From Acidimicrobiaceae bacterium (GTDB taxonomy: Bacteria > Actinomycetota > Acidimicrobiia > Acidimicrobiales > JAUTXP01), in assembly GCA_030837965.1 (NCBI GenBank), contig JAUTXP010000046.1, positions 1 to 38,325 of the forward strand: a stretch of DNA of 38,325 bases, given 5' to 3'. Made by a program: the position numbers and the translations under genes. Numbering within the stretch: the stretch's first letter is position 1; each line of letters starts with the position of its first letter. The notes under the pieces were generated by a model, which did no database searches, was not told the DNA's origin, and saw only the letters and a program-made list of their open reading frames with translations. This document shows positions 24,287 to 38,325 of the stretch, in pieces.

Positions 24287-26704
24287 GTGATTGAAGGCCG
24301 GCGCGCCCAAGTCGAGAAGGCCGCGCGCGGCCTGGTTCGGTCGCGCCCGGAGGTGCTTGTCGCCGCGGGGATTCTGCTCGCCGTGCTGTCGTGGACCTGG
24401 CCTGTCCCCGCCGGCATCCACGTGCTCGGGCTCATCGCGGGCGGGTCGCTGGCCTTGCACGCGCTGGGAATCAGCCTGGTGTACCGGGCCAACCGCATCA
24501 TCAACTTCGCCCAGCTCTCGATGGGCGCGGTGGCGGGCGTCCTGTTCGTGCAACTGGTCGAGCGGCGGACGTTCGTGTCGGCCTTGCGCCGAGTGTGCCC
24601 GCCGTGCGTGTCGCCGCCCGCGTTCGTCGACCGCCTCTCGCCCGGTCAGCTCGACGCGTTCATCAGCCGCTCACCCGACCTCTCGACCGCCATCAACCGC
24701 ACGACCTCGGTGTCGTCCCAGCGCCACGCGTTGGCCGACATCCTGGCTGTGGGCCATCCGTCCGGGTGGATGGTGCAGGCCAACTACTGGCTGGCCGCGC
24801 TGGTGTCGCTGGCCTTCGCCGTGTTCCTGGTCTGGGCCTTCTACTCGTTGGTCATCAAGCGGTTCAACCAGGCGCCGCGCCTGGTGTTGACCGTCATCAC
24901 CATCGCCGCGGGCTTCGCCATCAACAGCGTGGCCGCCTTCGTCCTGGGCACGTTCTTCGGCGGCGGGTCGTACTACCGGTTCAGCCGGGGCGCGGAGCCG
25001 CCGTTGAACTGGACGCTGCACATCGCGCCGGCCACGCTGCATGCGGCCCAGGTGTTGAGCCTGGTGGCCATCGTCCTCGCCGTCGTCGGACTCGTCTTCT
25101 TCTTCCGACGCAGCGCGCTTGGTGTGGCCCTGCGGGGCTCGGCCGAGAACCCGCAGCGGGCATCGACCCTGGGCATCCCCGTCGACGCGGTGACGGGCCG
25201 GGCCTGGGCCCTGGCCGGCGCACTGGCCGGGCTGGCCTCACTGCTGGCCGCCGCGGGCGCGGGCACGGTCGCATCGGCTGCGACCGACATCAGGCCGCTG
25301 GTGCGGATGCTGGCTGCGGCGTCGATCGGCGCGCTGGTGAGCCTGCCCGCCACGCTGTTCGGGGCCTTGGCCATCGGGCTCATGGACCAGAGCTTCCTCT
25401 GGCACGCCAAGAACAACGACGCCATGGTGGGCGTGCTGCTGGTGCTGGTGGTGGCCGCGCTGCTGGTCCAGCGCATGCGCTACAGCCGGGCCGAGGTCGA
25501 CGCCCAAGGCAGTTGGGAGGCGAGCCGCGAGATGCGGCCCATCCCGCCCGAGCTCCGCCCACTGCCCGCGGTTCGCCGGGCCCTGGGCGCGCTGGCCGCG
25601 CTGGTTGGCCTCTGGGTGTTGGCCTACCCGTGGGTCATGTCGCCCAGCCAGACCAACTTGGCCGTGTCGACCATGGCCCTCGGCATGGTGGGCCTGTCCC
25701 TGCTCGTGCTCACCGGTTGGGCGGGGCAGATCAGCCTCGGGCAGATGGGCTTCGCCGCGGTGGGGGGCTGGGTCGCGTTGGTCAGCGGCCTGCCTCTGTT
25801 GATCGGGCTCGTCGCGGGCGGCGTGGTGGCGGGCGCGTGCGCGGTGGCCGTCGGCATCCCCGCTCTGCGCCTGCGCGGCCTGCACGTTGCCATCTCCACT
25901 CTGGCCTTCGGATTGGCCGTCAGCTCTATCGTCCTCGACCGCCGCCACCTCGGCGGCCACGTGCCCTCGGCCGTGAACCGGCCCGTCCTGCTGGGCCTCT
26001 CGCTCGAGGACGAGCGGGTCTTCTACTACTTCGCACTGGTCGTGGTGGCCTTGGCCGTGGCCGCCGTCGCGGGCCTGCGACGAAGCCGGACGGCTCGCGT
26101 CCTGATCGCGTCCAAGGACAACGAGCAGGCGGCCCAGACGTTCGGCATCAGCGTGCGGGCGGCGCGCCTGCGGGCCTTCGCCATCTCCGGCTTCATGGCG
26201 GGCGCGGCGGGCGGGCTGTTGGCCTACGGCCAGCACACGCTCGACCCCTCGTCGTTCTCGCCCAGCCGCAGCCTGGACGTGTTCCTCGCCACGTTGATCG
26301 GCGGCATGGGCTCCATCGCTGGACCCCTGTTGGGCGCGGGCTACCGCGGCGCGGTGCAGATGGCGTCGACGTCTTCTCTCGGGGCCTATATCCAGCTCTT
26401 CCTCGACCCCGGCCTGGGCGTGCTCATCGTCTTCCTCGTGCTGCCCGGCGGGCTCACCCAAGCCGTGTTCGGCGTGCGCGACGCGTGGCTGCGCAGGCTG
26501 GCATCGCGTCTCCGCATCACCGTGCCCAGCCTGGCCGGCGACCGGGAGCAGACCAAGGGCGAGCGCCTGCCCATCGCCCCCAAGGTGTGGCCTTCGACCA
26601 CGCTGCCGATGTTCGTCCCCCAGCGCTACCGCCTCGACCGGCAGTGGGCCCGCACGGCCCGCGCCCAGCGGGTGGCCAAGGGCAAGGAGCTCGAACGTGC
26701 TTGA
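24287..26704 (+). CDS. LivH-LivM fusion permease of a branched-chain-amino-acid-type ABC importer
   Basis: An 805-residue fusion of the two permeases that are normally separate. Residues about 25-400 are LivH-like: NRIINFAQLSMGAVAGV and the ATPase-contacting loop SAENPQRASTLGI (about 281-295). Residues about 430-745 are LivM-like: GWAGQISLGQMGFAAVGGW and loop SKDNEQAAQTFGIS (about 605-618). A cytosolic tail of 60 residues follows. The LivH half contains an unusual 60-residue polar insert (about 100-160) with a CPPC motif, probably extracytoplasmic. The GTG 24287 start has GGAG about 9 bases upstream. Its stop lies 8 bases inside the next gene. The cargo is unknown; HAAT-family members import amino acids, urea, amides and other small molecules. 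Confidence 0.9.
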   Translation: MIEGRRAQVEKAARGLVRSRPEVLVAAGILLAVLSWTWPVPAGIHVLGLIAGGSLALHALGISLVYRANRIINFAQLSMGAVAGVLFVQLVERRTFVSALRRVCPPCVSPPAFVDRLSPGQLDAFISRSPDLSTAINRTTSVSSQRHALADILAVGHPSGWMVQANYWLAALVSLAFAVFLVWAFYSLVIKRFNQAPRLVLTVITIAAGFAINSVAAFVLGTFFGGGSYYRFSRGAEPPLNWTLHIAPATLHAAQVLSLVAIVLAVVGLVFFFRRSALGVALRGSAENPQRASTLGIPVDAVTGRAWALAGALAGLASLLAAAGAGTVASAATDIRPLVRMLAAASIGALVSLPATLFGALAIGLMDQSFLWHAKNNDAMVGVLLVLVVAALLVQRMRYSRAEVDAQGSWEASREMRPIPPELRPLPAVRRALGALAALVGLWVLAYPWVMSPSQTNLAVSTMALGMVGLSLLVLTGWAGQISLGQMGFAAVGGWVALVSGLPLLIGLVAGGVVAGACAVAVGIPALRLRGLHVAISTLAFGLAVSSIVLDRRHLGGHVPSAVNRPVLLGLSLEDERVFYYFALVVVALAVAAVAGLRRSRTARVLIASKDNEQAAQTFGISVRAARLRAFAISGFMAGAAGGLLAYGQHTLDPSSFSPSRSLDVFLATLIGGMGSIAGPLLGAGYRGAVQMASTSSLGAYIQLFLDPGLGVLIVFLVLPGGLTQAVFGVRDAWLRRLASRLRITVPSLAGDREQTKGERLPIAPKVWPSTTLPMFVPQRYRLDRQWARTARAQRVAKGKELERA

Positions 26705-29700
26705 GCACGAGGAGTCCTTCGACGAGCAGGTGCGCCGCTTCACGGCCACGACCCAAAAGCGCGACCAGATCCCCTCGGTGCGCGAACTGGCATGGGGCCT
26801 GGCCCCTGACGGCATCGTCTACCGGCCCGGCGTGCCCGAGCCCAAGGCGCCTCGCCGTTCGTTGCGCGAGCGGACCACCGAGGCCCTGGCCAACCTCGAC
26901 CCGCGTGGTATCGCAGTCGACCGGCGCGGTTTGTACGCGTTGATCTGTCTGGCCCTGCTCAACACGGTCGCCATCTGGGACGACCTGATCATCAGCACCG
27001 CGCTGCCGGTGATGAAGGTCGACATGGGCTTCGACTTCCAGTTCATGCTCACCCTCACCGCGGTGGTGACGTTGATCGGCACGCTGCTGCTGCCCACCCT
27101 CGGCCACCTGGCCGACCGGGTGAAACGGACGCGCATGGTGCAGCTCGGCGCCGTGATCGCCAACGTCAGCTCCGCCTTCGTGGCCGTGGCCCGCACGCCG
27201 GGTGCGCTCGTCGGGGCGCGCGTGGCGGGCAGCGTCGGCCCTGCGATTCAGGACTCGGCCAAGGGGTCGCTGTCCGTCGACTACTTCCCGGTCGAGAAGC
27301 GGGCCCGGGCCATCGGCTTTCTTCAGATGGCCAGCATGCTCGGCGGCTTCGTGGCCACGGTCGGGATCATCTTCCCGATGTTCGTGCTCGGCTGGTTCGG
27401 TTGGCGGGTGGGCATCATGGCGTCGGCCATCGGCGCCATGGCGGCCACGGTCACGTTGTTCTGGCTCCGCGAGCCCGTCAGGGGCGAGTTCGAGCGCCGG
27501 GCCATGGGCGTGTCCGAGGAGCAGGCCAAGATCGCGCAGAAGCCCGTGCCCTGGGCCGAGGCCTGGCGCTCCATCGGCGCCATCCGGACCCTGCGGCGCA
27601 TGTGGTACGCCCAGCCCTTCTTGACCGGTGGAACGTCGGCGGGCGGGCTGGTCCTGTTCGTGATCCAGGAGCGGGCGGCCAGACATGGGGCCGCGTCACT
27701 GGGGCCGGGCGCCCGCTTCATCTACACCCCGATGTTCATCCCGCTGCTCCAGACCGTGCCCACCCTGCTGGCCTTCGTGGCCACGCTGTACTCAGTGCCG
27801 TTGGCCGATCGGCTGATGCGCAACAACCCGGGGCGCATCATGGTGCTGACCGGGGGCGTGCAGCTCATGTCGGTGACGGGCATGTTGCTCATGGCCGTGA
27901 GCCCGTGGCTGATCTCGTCCATCGCCTTCGGGTGGCTGGTGGGCATGGGCCCGCCGCTCGTCGGAGTGGCCCAAGGGGTCCTGTTGGCCGTCATCATCCC
28001 GCCGCGCGTGCGCTCCTTGGGCATGGCCTCCATCGCGCCGTGGGCCGTGTTGGGTCTGCTCGTCTCGCCGCTGGTCGGCGGCTTCGCCGACGTCTTCGGG
28101 CCCACGGCCGCGGTCTTGGTGGCTGTGCCCATCTGGCTCACCGGCGCCTTCATCTACATGTCCGGCGGGGCCACCGTGGCCGCCGACATCCGCGCTGCCG
28201 TCGCCGCCAGCGCGGCCGACGACGAGGCTGCCGCCGCCCGCCGCAAAGGCGCGTCCAAGACCCTCGTGTGCAGGGACGTGGACGTGACCTACGAGGGGAC
28301 GCAGGTGCTGTTCAACGTCGACTTCGACGTGGACGAGGGCGAGCTGGTGGCCGTGCTCGGCACCAATGGCGCAGGCAAGTCCACCTTGTTACGGGCCATC
28401 TGCGGCTTGCAGGAGGCATCGAACGGGGCCGTGTTCCTCGACGGCGAGGACGTCACCCACAAGCCGCCCCACCTGAACGCGCGCGACGGCATCGTCTTCC
28501 TCCCCGGCGGCCGAGCCATCTTCCCGACGCTGACCGTGGACGAGAACCTGCGGGCCGCCCTCTGGCTCTACAAGGACGACGACGCCTACGTGGCCGAGCG
28601 CACGGCGCGCGTCCTCGACTTCTTCCCTGTGCTGGCCGAGCGCATGGGGGAGCGGGCCGGGAACATGTCCGGCGGCGAGCAGCAGATGCTGGCCTTGAGC
28701 CAGGCCTTCTTGATGCGCCCCAAGCTGTTGATGATCGACGAGCTGTCGCTCGGCCTGGCCCCCGCGGTGGTCGAGCAGTTGCTCGGGATCGTCAAGGCCA
28801 TTCGGGACGAGGGGACCACCGTCATCGTGGTCGAGCAGTCGATCAACGTGGCCCTCACACTGGCCGAGCGATCGGTCTTCTTGGACAAGGGCCGCAAGCT
28901 GTTCGACGGGCCGACCGACAAGCTGCTCGACCGGCCTGACCTGGTCCGCTCGGTGTTCCTGGGCGGCGCCGCGGCCGGAGGCGTCCGGGCGCGGGGTGCG
29001 GCCGCGTGGCGGGCCGAGCAGGCGGATACGGGCAGTGCCGCCGGCGCGGACGGTGCCGAGGCCGAGCCTGCCCTTCAAGCGGTTGACCTGCACGTGCGCT
29101 TCGGCGGCGTGAGGCCCCTCGACGGTGCTTCGGTGTCCGCCGCGGCGGGCGAGGTGGTCGGCATCATCGGCCCCAACGGCGCGGGCAAGACGACGCTGTT
29201 CGACGTCCTGAGCGGCTTCGTGGTCCCCGAGTCGGGCACGGTGCGCATCGAGGGCGCCGACGTCACCGCGCTCTCGCCGGACGCACGCGCCCGGTTGGGG
29301 CTGGGCCGGTCGTTCCAGAACACCCGGCTGTTCCCGTCCATGACGGCGCGCGAGAACATCGCCACCTCGCTCGAGCGTCAGGCCACCGTGCGCAGCTCGG
29401 TACTGGGCGCGGCCTGGGCGCCGAACGCGCGCCGGGTCGAGCGCCGCATCGGCCGCAGGGTCGAGTACTTCATCGACCTGCTCAACCTGGGCCGCTTCGC
29501 CAACAAGTTCGTCAACGAGCTGTCCACGGGGTCCCGTCGGATGGTGGAGCTGGCCTGCCTCATGGCCGCCGAGCCCCGCGCCCTGCTGCTCGACGAGCCG
29601 TCGTCGGGACTGGCCCAGGCCGAGATCGAGGTGCTGGGCCCAACCATCCAGCGCTTGGCCAGGGAGACGAGCGCGGGCGTCCTGGTCATCGAGCACGACA

Positions 29701-29925
29701 TGGCCCTCATCACCGAGGTGGCCGACCGGCTCGTGGCCATGGAGCGGGGTGTGGTGATCCTCGACGGCGAACCGTCAGAGGTCATCTCGCACCCACGCGT
29801 CGTGGAGTCCTATCTGGGCGCCGACCCGGCGGCCATCAACCGATCAGACGGCGGGGTGTTGGGGCGGGCTGTTGCCGCCCTCGACCTGCCCTCGCAAACC
29901 GATGAAGCACAGGAGAGCCGTGGCC

Positions 29926-29936
<11 letters not shown>
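26697..29936 (+). CDS. Triple fusion: MFS transporter - LivF ATPase - LivG ATPase
   Basis: A 1079-residue protein in one uninterrupted frame. Residues about 80-510 are a 12-helix-type MFS domain with GHLADRVKRTRM (the conserved loop 2-3 motif) and RARAIGFLQMASMLGG. Residues about 520-757 are a LivF-type ABC ATPase: Walker A GTNGAGKST (about 555), signature MSGGEQQML, Walker B LLMIDE. Residues about 792-1065 are a LivG-type ATPase: Walker A GPNGAGKTT (about 825), signature-like LSTGSRRM, Walker B ALLLDEPSSGLA. Both ATPases appear catalytically complete and would serve the LivH-LivM permease. The MFS part may be a second permease, an anchor or a scaffold. GTG 26697 overlaps the previous stop by 8 bases. 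Confidence 0.9.
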
Positions 29937-31104
<1,168 letters not shown>

Positions 31105-31108
31105 CCAA

Positions 31109-32386
31109 TTGGCTGAAGGGGTGTCGGCCCGGCTGCGCAGACTCGGGGGAGCGGGAGCCGCAGGTGGCTCTGTGCTCGTCGCCTGGGTTGAAAAGGCGCG
31201 CCTGACGATCCATGGCGCGGGCTTGATCGCCATCGCCGTGGCCGGCTGGTTCGTGGCCAAAGCCACCGGAAGCCGCACCCTTTACCTGATGGTCTACGCG
31301 GCCGCGGCCGTGGTGCTGATGGCCTGGTTCGCGGCCCGCCGCAAACTGGCGCTGTCGGTCGACCGCTCCAATCTTCCCACCCGCATGCGCGTGGGCCAGG
31401 AGCAGGAGGTCGCGTTGCGGGTCTCGTCCCGTCGGCGCGTCTCCACCATCCTCGTGCAAGAGGCGCTGCCCGAGCGGCTGGGCCGCACCGCGCAGATCCC
31501 GGTGGCGTCGTTGGGCGCGGGCGAGGAGGTCGAGCACGTCTATCGCGTGCGGCCCACCTTGCGTGGCGTGTACGAGATCGGTCCGGCCACCGCGGTGTGG
31601 TCCGACCCGTTCGGGTTCACCACCCACAGCCAGGTCTTGGCCGAGCCGGTGAAGATCATCGTCCACCCCTCGACCGAGATGGTGCACGATCGGGTGGTCA
31701 CGCGCATGTGGGAGGACCCGCCTGTGCGCCCACCCGTCTCCAAGCCGTGGCCCACCGGCTTCGAGTTCTACGGCATGCGCGACTACGTGCCCGGCGACGA
31801 CCTGCGCAGAGTGGTGTGGAACGCGCTGGCCAAGACCGGCCGCCTGCTCGTGCGCGAGTCGGAGCAGGGCATCACCGACCGTGTGGTGGTGTGCTTGGAC
31901 ACGGGCGGCGAGCGCCACAGTCCGGGCGATCCCAGTGCCACCTTCGAGACCGGCATCCGGGTGGCCGCGGGCGTGGGCGTGAAGCACTTGGCCGACGGCT
32001 TCAGCGTCACCCTCATCACCAGCGAGGGTCTGGCCCTCAACAGCGTGCGCGGGACCCGGGCCCGGCTGACCTACCTGGATGAGATGGCCCGATTGCAGCC
32101 CGTGCCCACGCCCTTCATGAAGGCGGGCCAACAGCTCATCGAGCAGGCCAAGTCAGGCGCCCATTTCGTCGTCGTCACCCCGCACGTCGACCGCGAGGTG
32201 GCGTCCCGGCTCCGGCTCCTTCTCGAACGCGGCGCGTCGGTGGTAGTGGCCCTCCTGATGTGGGAGGAGTCGGACCCGATGTCCACCAACCGGGCCGTCG
32301 CCCTCGGGTGCCGGGTGGTGCAGGTGCCGTTGGTGGGCGCCCTCGACGCCGTGTTCGCCCACAACGTGGGCGCGGGAGTGCGATGA
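31109..32386 (+). CDS. DUF58-domain membrane protein
   Basis: About 425 residues. Two hydrophobic helices (about 30-75) precede a beta-rich region and the DUF58 domain with its signature FYGMRDYVPGDDLRRVVWNA (about residues 220-240), then a VWA-like fold with VVVCLDTGG, where the DxS of a full MIDAS is DTG. DUF58 proteins are standard MoxR partners. The start is probably TTG 31109, placed 10 bases after AGGAGG; GTG 31121 is the alternative. The stop overlaps the next start (ATGA). The protein probably links MoxR to the TgpA-like protein at the membrane; the precise role is unknown. Confidence 0.88.
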   Translation: MAEGVSARLRRLGGAGAAGGSVLVAWVEKARLTIHGAGLIAIAVAGWFVAKATGSRTLYLMVYAAAAVVLMAWFAARRKLALSVDRSNLPTRMRVGQEQEVALRVSSRRRVSTILVQEALPERLGRTAQIPVASLGAGEEVEHVYRVRPTLRGVYEIGPATAVWSDPFGFTTHSQVLAEPVKIIVHPSTEMVHDRVVTRMWEDPPVRPPVSKPWPTGFEFYGMRDYVPGDDLRRVVWNALAKTGRLLVRESEQGITDRVVVCLDTGGERHSPGDPSATFETGIRVAAGVGVKHLADGFSVTLITSEGLALNSVRGTRARLTYLDEMARLQPVPTPFMKAGQQLIEQAKSGAHFVVVTPHVDREVASRLRLLLERGASVVVALLMWEESDPMSTNRAVALGCRVVQVPLVGALDAVFAHNVGAGVR

Positions 32387-35352
32387 CCATCGCGCCCGAG
32401 CACCTGCGCTCGCTCGACGAGTTGGACGTCGACCTTTCCCGCGACCTCCCTGCGGACCCGTTCGAGTCGGCCGCGCCCAGCGGCACCGAGCCAGGCGGCA
32501 CCGGGACCAACCGCGACTCGGCGCCGTCAGGCAAGTCGGTCAACCCCGCGTTGGTCGCGGCGGCCACGTTCTTGGCGACTGCCGCGGCTGGGTGGATGGT
32601 CGGCGGGATGTTCCGCAACGCTCTGATCGCCCGGGCCCTGTGCCTGGCGGGCGCGGCCATCGGCGTGGGCGTCATCCATCTGTCGCATCGGCTCTTGCGG
32701 GCGGGCGTCCTGCCGTACGCGGTCATTCCCCTCGCCGCGTTGGCCGGGGCCGCGGCGGTGGCGCCCGAGGCCACTGGGGGCACGGCCAACCTGCCCGGCC
32801 TGGTGGCGGACGCGCTGCGGGCGGGCGGCCTGCGCCAGCCTCCCGTTGCCTTCGACCCAGGGTGGCGCTTCATCCTGGTCGTGCTCTTTGCTGTCATCGG
32901 CGCGGGCGCGTTGGCCAACGCCGTGCGCATGGCCCGACCGCGCATCGGCGTCGTCGTCCCCGGCGTGGTCACGCTCGGAGCCGCAGTCATCCAGCCGCCC
33001 GGCCACGAGCTGGTGGCCAGCACGGTGGCCATCTTCTTGGTCGTGGCCGGCTTCGCCGTGGCCTACGGGGCGGACATGGCCGCCGACGGCGCGGTCGGCG
33101 CCAAGTACGAGATGCGCAGGCTGGCCAGAGGCGTGGCCTTGCTGGTGGCGTTGATGGCGGCCATGTTGGGGATGGCCCGGCTCGGCTTCCTCTTCCCCGA
33201 CACGCAAGAGGACAAGGTCCTGCCGCCGCAGAAGCCGCCGCAGGCCCCGCTGGAAAAGGACCGCGAGCTGTTCCGGGTCAAGTCGCCTCGGCCTGGGCCA
33301 TGGCGGGTCGGCACCCTCGACGTCTACGACGGCAAGTCGTGGCTGTTGCCGCCGTACGACCCGCGGCGCGTGAAGCCGATGGTGAATGCGTCGGGGGTTC
33401 AGACGTACAAGGCCGAGTTCGACCTGGTCGATGTGCGCGGCCACAACCTGCCCGTGCCCGCCAACGTGCTGGCCGTTCGGGGCGACGCCAAGCCGGAGTA
33501 CGACCCGCGCACGCAGGTGCCCCGCCTTCCCTCGCGCATCCCGCGTCACTTCCGCTATACGGCCGAGGCCGTGGTCCCGCCCAACGGCAAGGACATGAAC
33601 GCCAGCCCGCCGCCCAACGCCAAGGTGGCGGCCGAGTTCGGGCGCATCCCCGCAGCGCCGGGCGAGGTGCTGGCCTTGTTGGCCGACGCGCCGACCGTGC
33701 CCTTCGACCGGATGCAGTTCCTGCGGGACCGGCTGTACGCCAACGTGGTGGCCGCGGGCAGCGGCCAGCCCGTGGACGTCACTCCGGCGCGGGTGGCCCA
33801 GATGCTCCAGCCCAACGCCGAGGCCACCCCGTACGAGATCACCGCGGCCGAGGCCATGCTGGCCCGCTGGGCAGGCGTGCCCTCGCGCATCGGGTTCGGC
33901 TTCCATGGCGGCGACCCGTTGCCTGACGGCACCTCGAGCTTCCGGCCCCGGCACGGCGCGGCCTGGATGGAGGCCTACTTCGAGGGCTTCGGCTGGGTGC
34001 CGCTGGTGGGCACGCCGCCCCGTGCCAAGTCGTCGCTCACCGCGGACCAGAAGAACGACGACCCGCGGGTGAAGCCCACGGACGACTTGGCCATGGTCCT
34101 CTACCTCCCGGCCCGTCGGCTCACCTTCAAGCTGCTGTACGAGATCGTGCGCTACTGGGTCCTCGTGCTGTTGCCGTTCGCCCTGTTGGGACTGGCCGTG
34201 GTCGTGCTGGCCCCGTGGCTCACCAAGCAGGCGCGGCGAGTGCGGCGCAGGCGTTGGGGCGCAGGGCGCGGCCCGATCGGGCAGACGCTGGCTGCGTATG
34301 CCGAGCTTCGGGACCGGTGCCACGACTTGAACCTGGGCGACGTGCGGTCGTCGCCGTTGGAGTTCGTCGACTCGTTCGCGGCCGACGGCGAGCACGACGA
34401 GCTGGGGTGGCTCGTGACCCGCGTGCTTTGGGGCGACCTGCGCCGCGATGTGCGAGCCGAGGACGCGGCGGCGTGCGGCGAGATGTGCCGATCGGTGTGG
34501 CGGCGCATGGTGTCCGAGCAGACGCCAGTGAACCGCTTCCTGGGCGCGGTGTCGCGCGCCTCGCTGCGAGACCCGTACAGCGACGACGTGCCCAACCTGT
34601 GGGTGTCGTGGTCGCTGGGCCGCGGGCTGCGCAAGCTTGGTCGGCAGGCGCGGCGCGTCGGCCGTTCCTTGACGCCCCGGCGTCTGGCCGAGGCGCGCGG
34701 TGCAGCCATGCTGGTCGTCGTCGTGCTGCTGCTCACCACGTTGACCGGCTGCGTGCGTCAAGGCGGTCTGACTGGCGCGACCGTCGCCGTGCGCCTGCCC
34801 GCAGTGCTTCCCTCGCAGACGCTGCTCGGGTATGGCGTGCAGCCCGAGCCCGCGGTCGAGGCCAAGTACCGGGCCAAGAGCAAGACCAAGCTGCTGGTGG
34901 ACGACGGACGCGTGGTCACGTTTCACGAGGGCCACATCACCCAAGGCGCGCTGCAAGTCGCGCTGTTCAAGCCCGAGGTCGACTCGCAGGACCCCGGCAT
35001 CCAGCGCGATGTGGAGAAGTCGATCGCCGGGACGTTCACGACCTACCGGTTCGGCACCGTCCGCGTCCGCCTGCACGAGTCGCCGCAGCAGCGGATCTTC
35101 CTGTGGTTCCCGCCCGACTCGAACACCATGGAGGTCTTCGTGATGCGAAAGCAGTTCGCCGACGCGTTGCGGGTCGTGCGCGCTGCGATCGCCCAACAGC
35201 GGGGGCTGTCGCCGGAGCTGCTGGCCGGCCGCACGCTCTTGCCCGTACCGCCTCCGGCACCCGACGCTCCGGTGCCGCCGTCGTCACCGGGGTCGACACC
35301 GGGATCGGCCTCAGCGTTCCCCGCTGGCGCGGCGTCAGGAGCCACGCCGTGA
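32383..35352 (+). CDS. TgpA-like transglutaminase-fold membrane protein with dead triad and added C-terminal tail
   Basis: A 989-residue protein. Residues 1-55 are polar; six or so helices follow (about 55-280); an extracytoplasmic region contains a transglutaminase-core fold (about 450-550), then a helix near 590-615 and a DUF4129-like cytosolic part. The core is recognisable from LARWAGVPSRIGFGFHGG and AAWMEAYFEGFGWVPL, yet the positions of catalytic Cys, His and Asp hold Pro483, Ala526 and Val542. A His two residues before Ala526 is the only nearby alternative. From residue 776 a new hydrophobic segment ends in a lipobox-like LTGC (Cys790), followed by a 200-residue domain with a Pro/Ser-rich end. 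Starts and stops overlap neighbours by 4 bases. Confidence 0.85.
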   Translation: MTIAPEHLRSLDELDVDLSRDLPADPFESAAPSGTEPGGTGTNRDSAPSGKSVNPALVAAATFLATAAAGWMVGGMFRNALIARALCLAGAAIGVGVIHLSHRLLRAGVLPYAVIPLAALAGAAAVAPEATGGTANLPGLVADALRAGGLRQPPVAFDPGWRFILVVLFAVIGAGALANAVRMARPRIGVVVPGVVTLGAAVIQPPGHELVASTVAIFLVVAGFAVAYGADMAADGAVGAKYEMRRLARGVALLVALMAAMLGMARLGFLFPDTQEDKVLPPQKPPQAPLEKDRELFRVKSPRPGPWRVGTLDVYDGKSWLLPPYDPRRVKPMVNASGVQTYKAEFDLVDVRGHNLPVPANVLAVRGDAKPEYDPRTQVPRLPSRIPRHFRYTAEAVVPPNGKDMNASPPPNAKVAAEFGRIPAAPGEVLALLADAPTVPFDRMQFLRDRLYANVVAAGSGQPVDVTPARVAQMLQPNAEATPYEITAAEAMLARWAGVPSRIGFGFHGGDPLPDGTSSFRPRHGAAWMEAYFEGFGWVPLVGTPPRAKSSLTADQKNDDPRVKPTDDLAMVLYLPARRLTFKLLYEIVRYWVLVLLPFALLGLAVVVLAPWLTKQARRVRRRRWGAGRGPIGQTLAAYAELRDRCHDLNLGDVRSSPLEFVDSFAADGEHDELGWLVTRVLWGDLRRDVRAEDAAACGEMCRSVWRRMVSEQTPVNRFLGAVSRASLRDPYSDDVPNLWVSWSLGRGLRKLGRQARRVGRSLTPRRLAEARGAAMLVVVVLLLTTLTGCVRQGGLTGATVAVRLPAVLPSQTLLGYGVQPEPAVEAKYRAKSKTKLLVDDGRVVTFHEGHITQGALQVALFKPEVDSQDPGIQRDVEKSIAGTFTTYRFGTVRVRLHESPQQRIFLWFPPDSNTMEVFVMRKQFADALRVVRAAIAQQRGLSPELLAGRTLLPVPPPAPDAPVPPSSPGSTPGSASAFPAGAASGATP

Positions 35353-36464
35353 GGCGGGACCTAGGCCGGGCTGCGGCCGTGGTTGCCCTCGCCCTGCTGC
35401 TGGGTGGGTGCAGCGGGCCGACCGTCCCGCTGGGCCTCTTCGTCAAAGAGGAGAAGGTCGACATCGTTCTGGGCAGCGACCAGAAGGAGCAGCGGGTGCC
35501 CGCGGCCCGTCCGCCGGGCGCCGACCCCATCAACCCCGGTTTCCCCAGCTTCGTCTCGCCCCCGCCGCCCCCAGTGCGGCCCACCGGGCCGGCTTCGGCG
35601 CCCGGCGATCAAGGCCCTGGCGACGACTCGATGCAGGACCTGCCCCCGCCGCCCGCGCCGCTGGTTGCCTGTCCCAGGCCGCGCGCCGACCAGCCGCCGG
35701 AACTGGTGGCCGGGTCGAACATCGAAGGCCCCCCCAAAGAGGGCGACTACACGTATCGCCGCACCGGCGCAGCGCGCGTCGGGGGCACGACGACGTCCCT
35801 CGACGCCGAGGTCGTCCGGCGCATCAACAAGGTCGCCACCATCACCATGGCCGGTCGTTCAGTGTGGCGCTACGACTCGACGCAACGGGAGTCCAACGTG
35901 GTCGCCGGGTCGAGCGGCCACGTCAATGCCGTGACCACGACGACGTACGAGTTGGACCAGAACGCCACCGTCGAAGGGTCCGAACAGGTGGCCGGCATCA
36001 AGATCGTCTCCGTCAACACCAGCAGCGGTGACGGCCAGGACTCGTTCTCGCCGCAGCCGCCCGTGCGCATCATGACCCTTCCTGCATCGGCCAAGTCCTA
36101 CGACGAGCAGGGCTCGGGTACGGACCCGCTGAGCGGCACCCACCTCGACACCATGTTCCGCACCTTGGAGCGGGTCGAGGTCGAGGGGTGCGGCGTGGCC
36201 TACCAGGCCTGGCGACAGGAAGTGTCGGGCGTCTACTACAACGCGTCGCAGACGCCCGGCGTGGCAGAGGGCGCGCTGTACTTCACGTCGATCGTCTACA
36301 TCGCGCCTCAATACGGCGGCATCGTGCTGCGGGACGAGCTGCACCTGAGCGACCAGGCCCCGCCGGACATGAAGACGTCCGACTGGGCGCTGCCCGAAGG
36401 CAAGAACATCGACGTGCGCAGCGTCTCCACCATCAACTCGGCCGTGCCCAAGGGCGCGTCATGA
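35349..36464 (+). CDS. Lipoprotein of unknown function
   Basis: A 371-residue predicted lipoprotein: MRRDLGR start, hydrophobic run, lipobox LGGC at about residues 18-21. The mature part begins with a Pro-rich linker (about 60-110), then a beta-rich domain starting near DYTYRRTG and continuing to the end, with repeated Thr/Val-rich strands and two isolated Cys. I recognise no family. GTG 35349 overlaps the TgpA-like stop by 4 bases, and its own stop overlaps the next gene by 4 bases. It is probably an extracytoplasmic part of the transporter/MoxR complex, by context only. Confidence 0.8.
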   Translation: MRRDLGRAAAVVALALLLGGCSGPTVPLGLFVKEEKVDIVLGSDQKEQRVPAARPPGADPINPGFPSFVSPPPPPVRPTGPASAPGDQGPGDDSMQDLPPPPAPLVACPRPRADQPPELVAGSNIEGPPKEGDYTYRRTGAARVGGTTTSLDAEVVRRINKVATITMAGRSVWRYDSTQRESNVVAGSSGHVNAVTTTTYELDQNATVEGSEQVAGIKIVSVNTSSGDGQDSFSPQPPVRIMTLPASAKSYDEQGSGTDPLSGTHLDTMFRTLERVEVEGCGVAYQAWRQEVSGVYYNASQTPGVAEGALYFTSIVYIAPQYGGIVLRDELHLSDQAPPDMKTSDWALPEGKNIDVRSVSTINSAVPKGAS

Positions 36465-37114
36465 GACGCGTCCTGAGGTGCGTCGTGGCGGCCGTCGTCG
36501 CCGCGGTTGCGCTCATGGGGCTCGGCGGCTGTACGTCCGGGGGCGGCGGCAAGGGGAGCGGGGCCCACATCGGCTCGTCGCCGTCGACCGTGGTGCCCGC
36601 AGCCGGCGTCGTGAGCGCCGCCGTGCCCGACATCCCGCCCAAGGAGTTGATCGAGCCCGAGCCCAAGACGGACAGAGAGCGACTGCTGGCCAAGGCCGGT
36701 CAGATCTACGACTTCTGCCAGGATTGGAACATCATCGAGGGCATCCCGGAGCCTCGACCGCACGACGCGGACGACCTGGTTCGCTTCGGGGCCAAGTACT
36801 ACGAGACGCTCAAGTACCTGGACCCCACGCGCAAAGTGCTCGAGCGGGTTCCGGCTCCGGGCGGCGGCCCGCCGCAGTTGAAGGCGGTGAGCCTCTCGCC
36901 CCAGACGCTGACCGATCTCGTTCGTCTGCGTCTCGAGGCGTTCGCCTACTTCAAGCGGGTGTCAGTCACCCGCATCGCCATGAGGCGCAAGGAGATCGAC
37001 GCGGCCAAGGCGCAAGCCCGTTATGACGACGCCTTTCGGAGATTGGCCGAAGACGACGTGCAGGCCGTCTACCAACGACTCTTGGAGTATTCCAATGGCC
37101 ACTGCCACCTCTGA
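36461..37114 (+). CDS. Lipoprotein of unknown function
   Basis: A 217-residue predicted lipoprotein: MRRVLRC start, hydrophobic segment, lipobox LGGC at about 21-24, then a Gly/Ser-rich linker. The remainder (about 65-217) is mostly helical, including AKAGQIYDFCQDWNII and a long C-terminal amphipathic helix with FAYFKRVSVTRIAMRRKEID. No recognised family. ATG 36461 overlaps the preceding stop (ATGA), and its final 20 bases overlap the next gene. The helical character differs from the preceding beta-rich lipoprotein, so the two may be different subunits of one surface assembly. Confidence 0.8.
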   Translation: MRRVLRCVVAAVVAAVALMGLGGCTSGGGGKGSGAHIGSSPSTVVPAAGVVSAAVPDIPPKELIEPEPKTDRERLLAKAGQIYDFCQDWNIIEGIPEPRPHDADDLVRFGAKYYETLKYLDPTRKVLERVPAPGGGPPQLKAVSLSPQTLTDLVRLRLEAFAYFKRVSVTRIAMRRKEIDAAKAQARYDDAFRRLAEDDVQAVYQRLLEYSNGHCHL

Positions 37115-38325
37115 CCGCGACGGGTCGCGGCGCAACCAGCGCGGGCCGAGCGTCTTGTACGGCGGCGCGACCGCGTGCCTGCTCTTGGTGATCCTGCTGG
37201 TGGCCATGAGCGCGCCTCGCATCGCGCCGCCCGCCGTCGCTGAGATCGCCCCGCAGGCCGTCGAGCAGATCAAGGACGCGCCCGAGGAGCAGGCGAGCAC
37301 GGTCGGGACGGGTGAGGGCCAGGGCGGCGACGGTCTGGGAGACGACGGGTCGGGCACCACTGGCGACCCCAAGAAGCCGAGCGACAAGCCGCCGCGCGTC
37401 TCCGACGACCCCGAGGCCCTCGACCGGTCGTCGGTGCTGCACTGCGTCGGCAACCCGCCCCGCCAGATCGAGGACCCGCAGTCGCCGCCGTGCATCGCCA
37501 TCTGGGAGGGCGACAACGGCGGGGCCACTTCGCGCGGGGTGACGGCCGACGAGGTGACGGTGGCCGTGGGCGATCCCGCGGGCGCGGGCGCGTATCCGCA
37601 GGCCTTGCTGGACGACTTCGCCACCTTCTTCAACAAGCGCTTCCAGTTCTACGGCCGCAAGCTCCGGCTGGTGTCGTTCCCCACCGCAGGGCAGGGGGCC
37701 AAGATCGAGGAGATGCAGCGCGACGCGTCGCGCGTGGCCGACGAGATCGGCGCGTTCGCGGCGGCGTCGTACGGCTACGAGGAAGGGCGCGAGAGCCTGT
37801 ACTTCGACGAACTGGCCCGGCGCAAAGTGGTGTCGGTGATGCAGGTGTCGTTCGGGCTGCCTTCGGTGGACGAGGCCCACATGCGCCGCAATGCGCCCTA
37901 TCAATGGAACTACACCCCGTCGGCCGACATCTTGTTGCGGGACTACGGGACGTTCCTGTGCTCGACGCTGGCCCACAAGGGCGCGGCCTATTCAGGCGGG
38001 GCCGAGCTGTTCAAGCTCCGCAAGTTCGGGATCATCGTGGACACCACCACCAAGGACCAGTTGCCGCCGGTCGACATCCGGCCGCTGCAAGAGGTGCTGC
38101 GAAGCTGCGACAGCGAAGCCGACGTGGTCGAGTGGTCGGCGGGGGAGCAGGCGTCGGCCATGCTCGTCGGGCTGCGCAACGACGGCGTGACCAGCATCCT
38201 CTACACCGGCGCCACGCCCACGCTGTCCACCACGATCATGCCCGCGGCCACGGGCCAGGGTTACCAGCCCGAGTGGCTGATCTCGAACTTCGGGCACCAG
38301 GACGACGACGACGCCGCCACCTACT
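37095..38325 (+). CDS. Membrane-anchored periplasmic-binding-type protein (3' truncated)
   Basis: An open frame from ATG 37095 to the window edge, at least 410 residues. A basic start (SDRDGSRRNQR) precedes one hydrophobic helix (about 20-40) without lipobox, so it is probably an uncleaved anchor. A long Gly/Asp/Pro-rich linker follows (about 60-110), then a Cys-bearing segment CVGNPPRQIEDPQSPPC and GDNGGATSRGVTADEVTVAV, which is how many actinobacterial HAAT-type substrate-binding proteins begin their type I periplasmic-binding fold. Later parts (FFNKRFQFYGRKLRLV, FGIIVDTTTKDQ) fit that fold. It is the likely substrate receptor for the LivH-LivM/LivF-LivG system, placed last in the same operon. 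It overlaps the preceding gene by 20 bases. Confidence 0.82.
   Translation, partial: MATATSDRDGSRRNQRGPSVLYGGATACLLLVILLVAMSAPRIAPPAVAEIAPQAVEQIKDAPEEQASTVGTGEGQGGDGLGDDGSGTTGDPKKPSDKPPRVSDDPEALDRSSVLHCVGNPPRQIEDPQSPPCIAIWEGDNGGATSRGVTADEVTVAVGDPAGAGAYPQALLDDFATFFNKRFQFYGRKLRLVSFPTAGQGAKIEEMQRDASRVADEIGAFAAASYGYEEGRESLYFDELARRKVVSVMQVSFGLPSVDEAHMRRNAPYQWNYTPSADILLRDYGTFLCSTLAHKGAAYSGGAELFKLRKFGIIVDTTTKDQLPPVDIRPLQEVLRSCDSEADVVEWSAGEQASAMLVGLRNDGVTSILYTGATPTLSTTIMPAATGQGYQPEWLISNFGHQDDDDAATY

Follow-up and report, generated by a model that had tools for sequence, protein, structure and literature searches.

A TgpA-like membrane protein, here called psTG, has non-reactive residues at all three positions of its transglutaminase triad, and a whole group of homologues has the same kind of loss, nearly all of them beside genes for a LIV-type importer. 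Catalytic death of psTG is nearly certain, and its status as a pseudoenzyme is strongly supported by alignments together with a structure model. The protein (989 aa) was translated from the open reading frame at 32383..35352 on the forward strand of the window, by which we mean the whole stretch of 38,325 nucleotides analysed from an Acidimicrobiaceae bacterium. Operons of the MoxR-DUF58-transglutaminase type occur widely, and little is known of what they do. One would naturally expect their transglutaminase to supply an enzyme activity. That a large clade is dead, and yet conserved and inherited together with a single transporter, suggests that this third component can matter as a structural partner. 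The clade also offers the LIV-type importer as a concrete candidate client for the MoxR machine, so that the question can be put to a test.

Domain layout, fold and catalytic positions of psTG

Hydropathy and an AlphaFold2 model place an N-terminal transmembrane bundle at residues about 55-266 of psTG, a transmembrane part after the ectodomain at about 584-615, a cytoplasmic helical region at about 620-740, and a further transmembrane segment with a lipobox-like LTGC at 767-796. The ectodomain with the transglutaminase fold covers residues 283-551 (33229..34035, forward strand) according to VIA-align and Foldseek. The model also contains a C-terminal domain (residues about 802-941, window 34786-35205), whose VIA-align matches to the LpqN, MTC28, PsbP and Mog1p folds were middling (Z 7-8). 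A short separate ORF matching psTG residues 703-927 was seen at locus L022 of genome G003.

Pfam placed Transglut_core (PF01841) on residues 467-541 (28.6 bits; the cut-off is 23), and all 28 psTG relatives matched this family at E<=1. The TgpA N-terminal membrane domain, PF11992, was matched by 20 of the 28 relatives (best 2.3e-15); on the psTG of the window it reached 42 bits for a portion of the model (positions 216-330), and it was absent from the hmmscan listing for this psTG as a single protein. When psTG was compared by profile with five intact TgpA proteins, 591 columns were aligned with a probability of 99.8%, a span which indicates that the relation includes the membrane part too. 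psTG is a TgpA-like membrane protein.

The ectodomain was modelled confidently by AlphaFold2 from 28 sequences, with block means mostly >90 pLDDT. Its top VIA-align match was TgpA 6g4h (Z 20.0, 245 residues, rmsd 3.8, 17% identity, model residues 283-551), and the next entry that was not TgpA was a putative cysteine protease, 3isr, with Z 10.1. Foldseek matched the ectodomain to 6g49 with an E-value of 1.1e-9. The ectodomain thus retains the TgpA fold.

The sequence-only reading had put Pro483, Ala526 and Val542 at the Cys, His and Asp positions, and alignments both to intact TgpA and to 6g49 bore this assignment out. Pro483 (codon ccg, 33829..33831) stands at the catalytic Cys position, Ala526 (gcg, 33958..33960) at the His position and Val542 (gtg, 34006..34008) at the Asp/Glu position, all on the forward strand. 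The GYCEQF/HAW/FEPT motifs of intact TgpA from the same order align onto TPYEIT/AAW/LVGT of psTG. In the alignment of the psTG family profile with Pseudomonas aeruginosa TgpA 6g49, the Cys of GFCAHYAG falls on the Pro column and the His of DAHAW on the Ala column; this alignment stops just before the Asp, and the third position rests on the alignments with intact TgpA of the same order. Pro483 opens the helix 483-496 of the model, which in active members bears the nucleophile.

The replacement extends to the relatives, which excludes chance and sequencing errors as its source. All 28 aligned psTG relatives have Pro at the Cys position; the His position is Ala in 25, Ser in one, Ile in one and a gap in one; the Asp position is Ile in 14, Val in 10, Leu in two and a gap in two. 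A productive triad formed by another cysteine together with His524 was also looked for among the 28 relatives. Residue 524 was His in only 11 of them (Asn in 10, Asp in 7), and no ectodomain cysteine was found in 27, so that no replacement triad is plausible and this candidate was rejected. With non-reactive residues at the triad, no other cysteine in the ectodomain, an intact predicted fold and a clade-wide loss within the same operon, the suspicion that psTG is a pseudoenzyme held up.

The gene cluster around psTG

In the window, psTG is preceded and followed on the forward strand by genes of a transporter and of a MoxR/DUF58 pair. A fused LivH-LivM permease of a LIV-type ABC importer is encoded at 24287..26704 (PF02653 in two stretches, E 2.9e-50). 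It is followed at 26697..29936 by a protein of 1079 aa in which an MFS part (PF07690) is joined to LivF-like and then LivG-like ATPases (two PF00005 stretches); the ATPase parts matched LivG/LivF/Urt ATPase models. The N-terminal half of this fusion was matched in 32 of 298 genomes of the same order. A MoxR AAA+ ATPase lies at 29929..31104 (PF07726, E 4.8e-62), and motif alignment showed that Walker A and B are kept in the cluster MoxR copies compared. Next to it, at 31109..32386, is a DUF58 protein with an uncertain start codon (PF01882, E 6.7e-8). MoxR, DUF58 and the transglutaminase-fold gene are therefore adjacent in that order (29929-35352), and the arrangement recurs in relatives.

In motif alignment, the DUF58 protein of the window has LDTGGERH where the VWA metal motif DxSxS would stand, and the DUF58 proteins of the cluster have LDTDRxxHS or similar at this site, without DxSxS. 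The idea of a metal-site loss unique to the cluster was dropped, because no difference from the DUF58 proteins beside intact TgpA could be demonstrated.

Downstream of psTG, two predicted lipoproteins are encoded. The one at 35349..36464 (signal/lipobox-like MRRDLGRAAAVVALALLLGGC) had no Pfam or NCBIfam match, and weak homologues of it adjoin other psTG copies; the one at 36461..37114 (MRRVLRCVVAAVVAAVALMGLGGC) had no Pfam match above the cut-off. The last gene, 37095..38325, continues past the window end and encodes a membrane-anchored substrate-binding protein with a LivK/LivJ fold, which is complete in L062 (ORF to 1780). Its identity came from fold comparison, while sequence comparison with the PDB did not identify it: the model (m58bafb985399) matched LivK 3td9 with a VIA-align Z of 24.1 and a Foldseek E-value of 1.7e-13, and showed an N-terminal membrane helix, a low-confidence linker and then a confidently modelled LivK fold. 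Peripla_BP_6 was matched in two of 15 relatives. The cluster thus holds the parts of a LIV-type importer, namely BPD_transp_2 permeases, two ATPases and a LivK-fold binding protein.

According to the neighbourhood tables, LivHM, MFS-LivFG, MoxR and DUF58 were all present at 20 of the 22 psTG loci that had enough flank on both sides. In one gene order, that of the window, the transporter lies upstream of psTG; in the other it lies downstream and the binding protein is divergent. The two exceptions were L049 and L121. Locus L049 is the second of two tandem psTG clusters (L044 and L049, JAHWKU010000002.1) and is without its own MoxR/DUF58, whereas L044 on the same contig has both genes; this suggests that the two copies may share a single MoxR/DUF58 pair. 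At L121 (G336:C169:1-19000), psTG was accompanied by a short DUF58 match, and no MoxR or Liv genes were found in the stretch; a breakdown of the cluster is possible there. One further psTG copy, C61:28, stands at the beginning of its contig, and the genes that are probably its partners terminate contig C81 (L113); we infer that this copy belongs with them.

LivHM/MFS-LivFG was also found at eight loci (L107-L112, L114, L115), most of them with a binding protein, that carry none of MoxR, DUF58 and psTG. The module is therefore not required for transport as such. In the transporter tree, which is unrooted, the eight module-free transporters formed one group with support 100, suggesting that there was, among the transporters sampled, a single gain or a single loss of the module.

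Distribution, co-inheritance and constraint

Triad residues were tallied for the psTG set and for TgpA_N proteins from up to 59 genomes of the same order. Cys-His-Glu was found in 47 rows and Cys-His-Asp in 11, Glu thus being the commoner third residue in these actinobacterial TgpA relatives, and the triad was kept by 58 of about 60 non-psTG TgpA_N proteins. Pro stood at the Cys position in 41 rows, equal to 33 distinct sequences. All 33, from uncultured Actinomycetota, had Pro-(Ala/Ser/Ile)-(Ile/Val/Leu) at the triad positions; whether orthologues in the same operon share the loss had been raised beforehand, and they do throughout.

The four remaining rows showed other triad losses, all outside the psTG clade. 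Here the Cys was replaced by Ala in L166 (G039:C11:97900-101549) and L174 (G011:C202), by Glu in L165 (G023:C25) and by Ser in L176 (G032:C56), with the His also lost in two of them. These four belong to ordinary MoxR-DUF58 operons without the transporter. Inactivation of TgpA therefore seems to have occurred more than once.

In a careful tree of 40 rows, the Pro group was split off by one branch with support 100/100 that was present in 100% of bootstrap trees, and a quick tree of 94 rows gave the same branch with support 100 and all 33 distinct rows. The stem of the group is long (2.7-3.5 changes per column). These trees are unrooted, and calling the group a clade presupposes a root outside it, which is likely; on this basis, the triad loss was a single event.

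psTG was matched at E<=1e-20 in 12 of 298 genomes of the same order and in 7 of 396 sampled across the phylum. A scan of named genomes with the psTG pattern, which covers fairly close relatives, found 18 loci, all in uncultured Actinomycetota. The plasmid search gave one partial match of 28%, to a Nonomuraea record of 11.85 Mb. In the genome of the window, seven copies are dead and a single TgpA (C5:62345, L030) is intact, so that the activity is kept elsewhere in that genome.

Distance matrices of psTG and of its neighbours were correlated with r of 0.87-0.90 over 24-28 loci, and none of 5000 permutations was as high. Since species history inflates a correlation across genomes, the test was repeated within one genome on seven copies with all 5040 permutations, the C61:28 psTG being paired with L113. 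The correlation was strongest for the binding protein (r=0.89, 1 permutation as high), followed by DUF58 (r=0.80, 10 as high), MFS-LivFG (r=0.79, 5 as high), MoxR (r=0.74, 3 as high) and LivHM (r=0.74, 26 as high). This showed that psTG, MoxR, DUF58 and the LIV-type importer are passed on together as one block.

The dN/dS of the psTG core was 0.10-0.42 in seven close pairs, which are rough values (NG86, GC-rich genes). The membrane and cytoplasmic parts were likewise under purifying selection, and the core was more constrained than the transmembrane part in about half of the close pairs. Columns 306, 483, 485, 504, 526 and 543 were fixed differently in psTG and intact TgpA. The new conserved residues of psTG are P483, E485 (Glu485, 94% conserved), W496, G504, A526 and G543; the newly fixed ones include W496, F533, P540 and A457/G459/G461/P463 (A-x-G-x-G-x-P, 457-463). 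The conservation of psTG is a new pattern of constraint and not decay.

Comparison with known systems and the proposed role

TgpA of P. aeruginosa (PA2873; 6g49, 6g4h; PF11992 + PF01841) has, like psTG, a membrane anchor and a transglutaminase-fold domain in the periplasm; the domain is active when purified, and the protein is important for viability (PMC3507681). TgpA keeps the triad, whereas psTG has Pro/Ala/Val and lies in a transporter cluster. psTG is homologous to TgpA, yet without the triad that defines a transglutaminase it should not be classed as one. The gene order MRP-DUF58-transglutaminase is already known, and the aaa-atp/duf58/tgm genes of the Bifidobacterium PFNA cluster have the same three-gene order as the psTG cluster (PMC6803598). 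Intact TgpA genes of the same taxonomic order also have MoxR/DUF58 neighbours. The psTG cluster differs from such operons in that it is duplicated and joined to a LIV-type importer, and in that its transglutaminase is dead. Eukaryotic EPB42 and FBXO21 are inactive transglutaminase-fold proteins as well (PMC10318531), but they belong to an unrelated lineage and have no MoxR or transport link. The transporter resembles LIV/HAAT-type branched-chain amino acid importers in its LivHM permease, LivF/LivG ATPases and LivK-fold binding protein, and differs from them in its fused permeases, its ATPases fused to MFS, its membrane-anchored binding protein and the attached module. In the literature searched, we found no description of the dead psTG clade or its transporter link, and no inactive TgpA or MFS-LIV fusion, which does not prove absence.

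The enzyme fold of psTG probably persists because it serves some purpose other than catalysis. A repurposing for binding or structure fits the purifying selection, the new conserved residues and the co-inheritance with the transporter. On balance it seems probable, if only slightly so, that the ectodomain is a docking part linking the MoxR/DUF58 remodelling pair to the LIV-type importer. In this reading psTG is a catalytically dead descendant of TgpA, a membrane transglutaminase normally found in a MoxR-DUF58-transglutaminase operon, and would act as the membrane adaptor of MoxR/DUF58, which would be an ATP-driven remodelling or assembly machine on the cytoplasmic side. The ectodomain would hold an outside partner without modifying it, the simplest candidates being the tethered binding protein, the neighbouring lipoproteins and the permease, and the cytoplasmic C-terminal helices would relay the connection to DUF58/MoxR. 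The module may thereby assemble, gate or regulate its particular transporter, though linkage of genes and shared inheritance are no proof of binding. The module-free transporter loci and the exceptions L049 and L121 also count against this reading. Action of MoxR and DUF58 on an importer is proposed by analogy with the MoxR/VWA pair NorQ/NorD, which uses ATP to remodel a membrane enzyme complex (PMC9976466); because the DUF58 proteins of the cluster have no DxSxS, the analogy with NorD is loose. We tentatively suggest that this may be a previously undescribed transporter-control module of Actinomycetota, in which a dead transglutaminase adaptor and MoxR/DUF58 assemble or gate an MFS-fused LIV-type importer. 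It is equally tentative that up to seven paralogous sets of it per genome are each matched to their own transporter.

Other readings account for part of these observations. The ectodomain might chiefly be a ligand receptor with the transporter as its output, its old cleft binding a peptide, a glutamine-bearing protein or a wall fragment and signalling inward to MoxR/DUF58. The retention of the fold and of the motifs framing the cleft with loss of the nucleophile is what binding without cutting predicts, and the strongest co-variation of psTG is with the binding protein; however, non-polar Pro, Ala and Ile/Val at the catalytic positions do not suggest a polar pocket, and we regard this reading as rather unlikely. 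It also appears improbable that the ectodomain is a passive remnant needed for folding alone, with the function residing in the membrane-spanning and cytoplasmic parts. What has been conserved is certainly not catalysis, and those parts are themselves under purifying selection, but the core is the more constrained part in about half of the close pairs and the ectodomain gained fixed residues of its own, which is unexpected for such a remnant.

It is very improbable that psTG is still an enzyme with an unusual active site built on Glu485, His524 or another acid/base. Active sites do migrate in the papain-like superfamily (PMC10318531) and Glu485 is highly conserved; against this stand the lack of any ectodomain cysteine in 27 of the 28 relatives, the restriction of His524 to a minority of relatives, and the Ala at the His position. 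Residue 482, which is Thr/Ser in 27 of the 28 relatives, directly abuts the invariant Pro at the helix start. An assembly, frameshift or alignment artefact would find some ground in the fragmented genome assembly (88 contigs, 4.18% contamination), and we give it practically no credence, for 33 distinct sequences, taken from many independently assembled genomes, show the same residues within conserved motifs of an unbroken reading frame.
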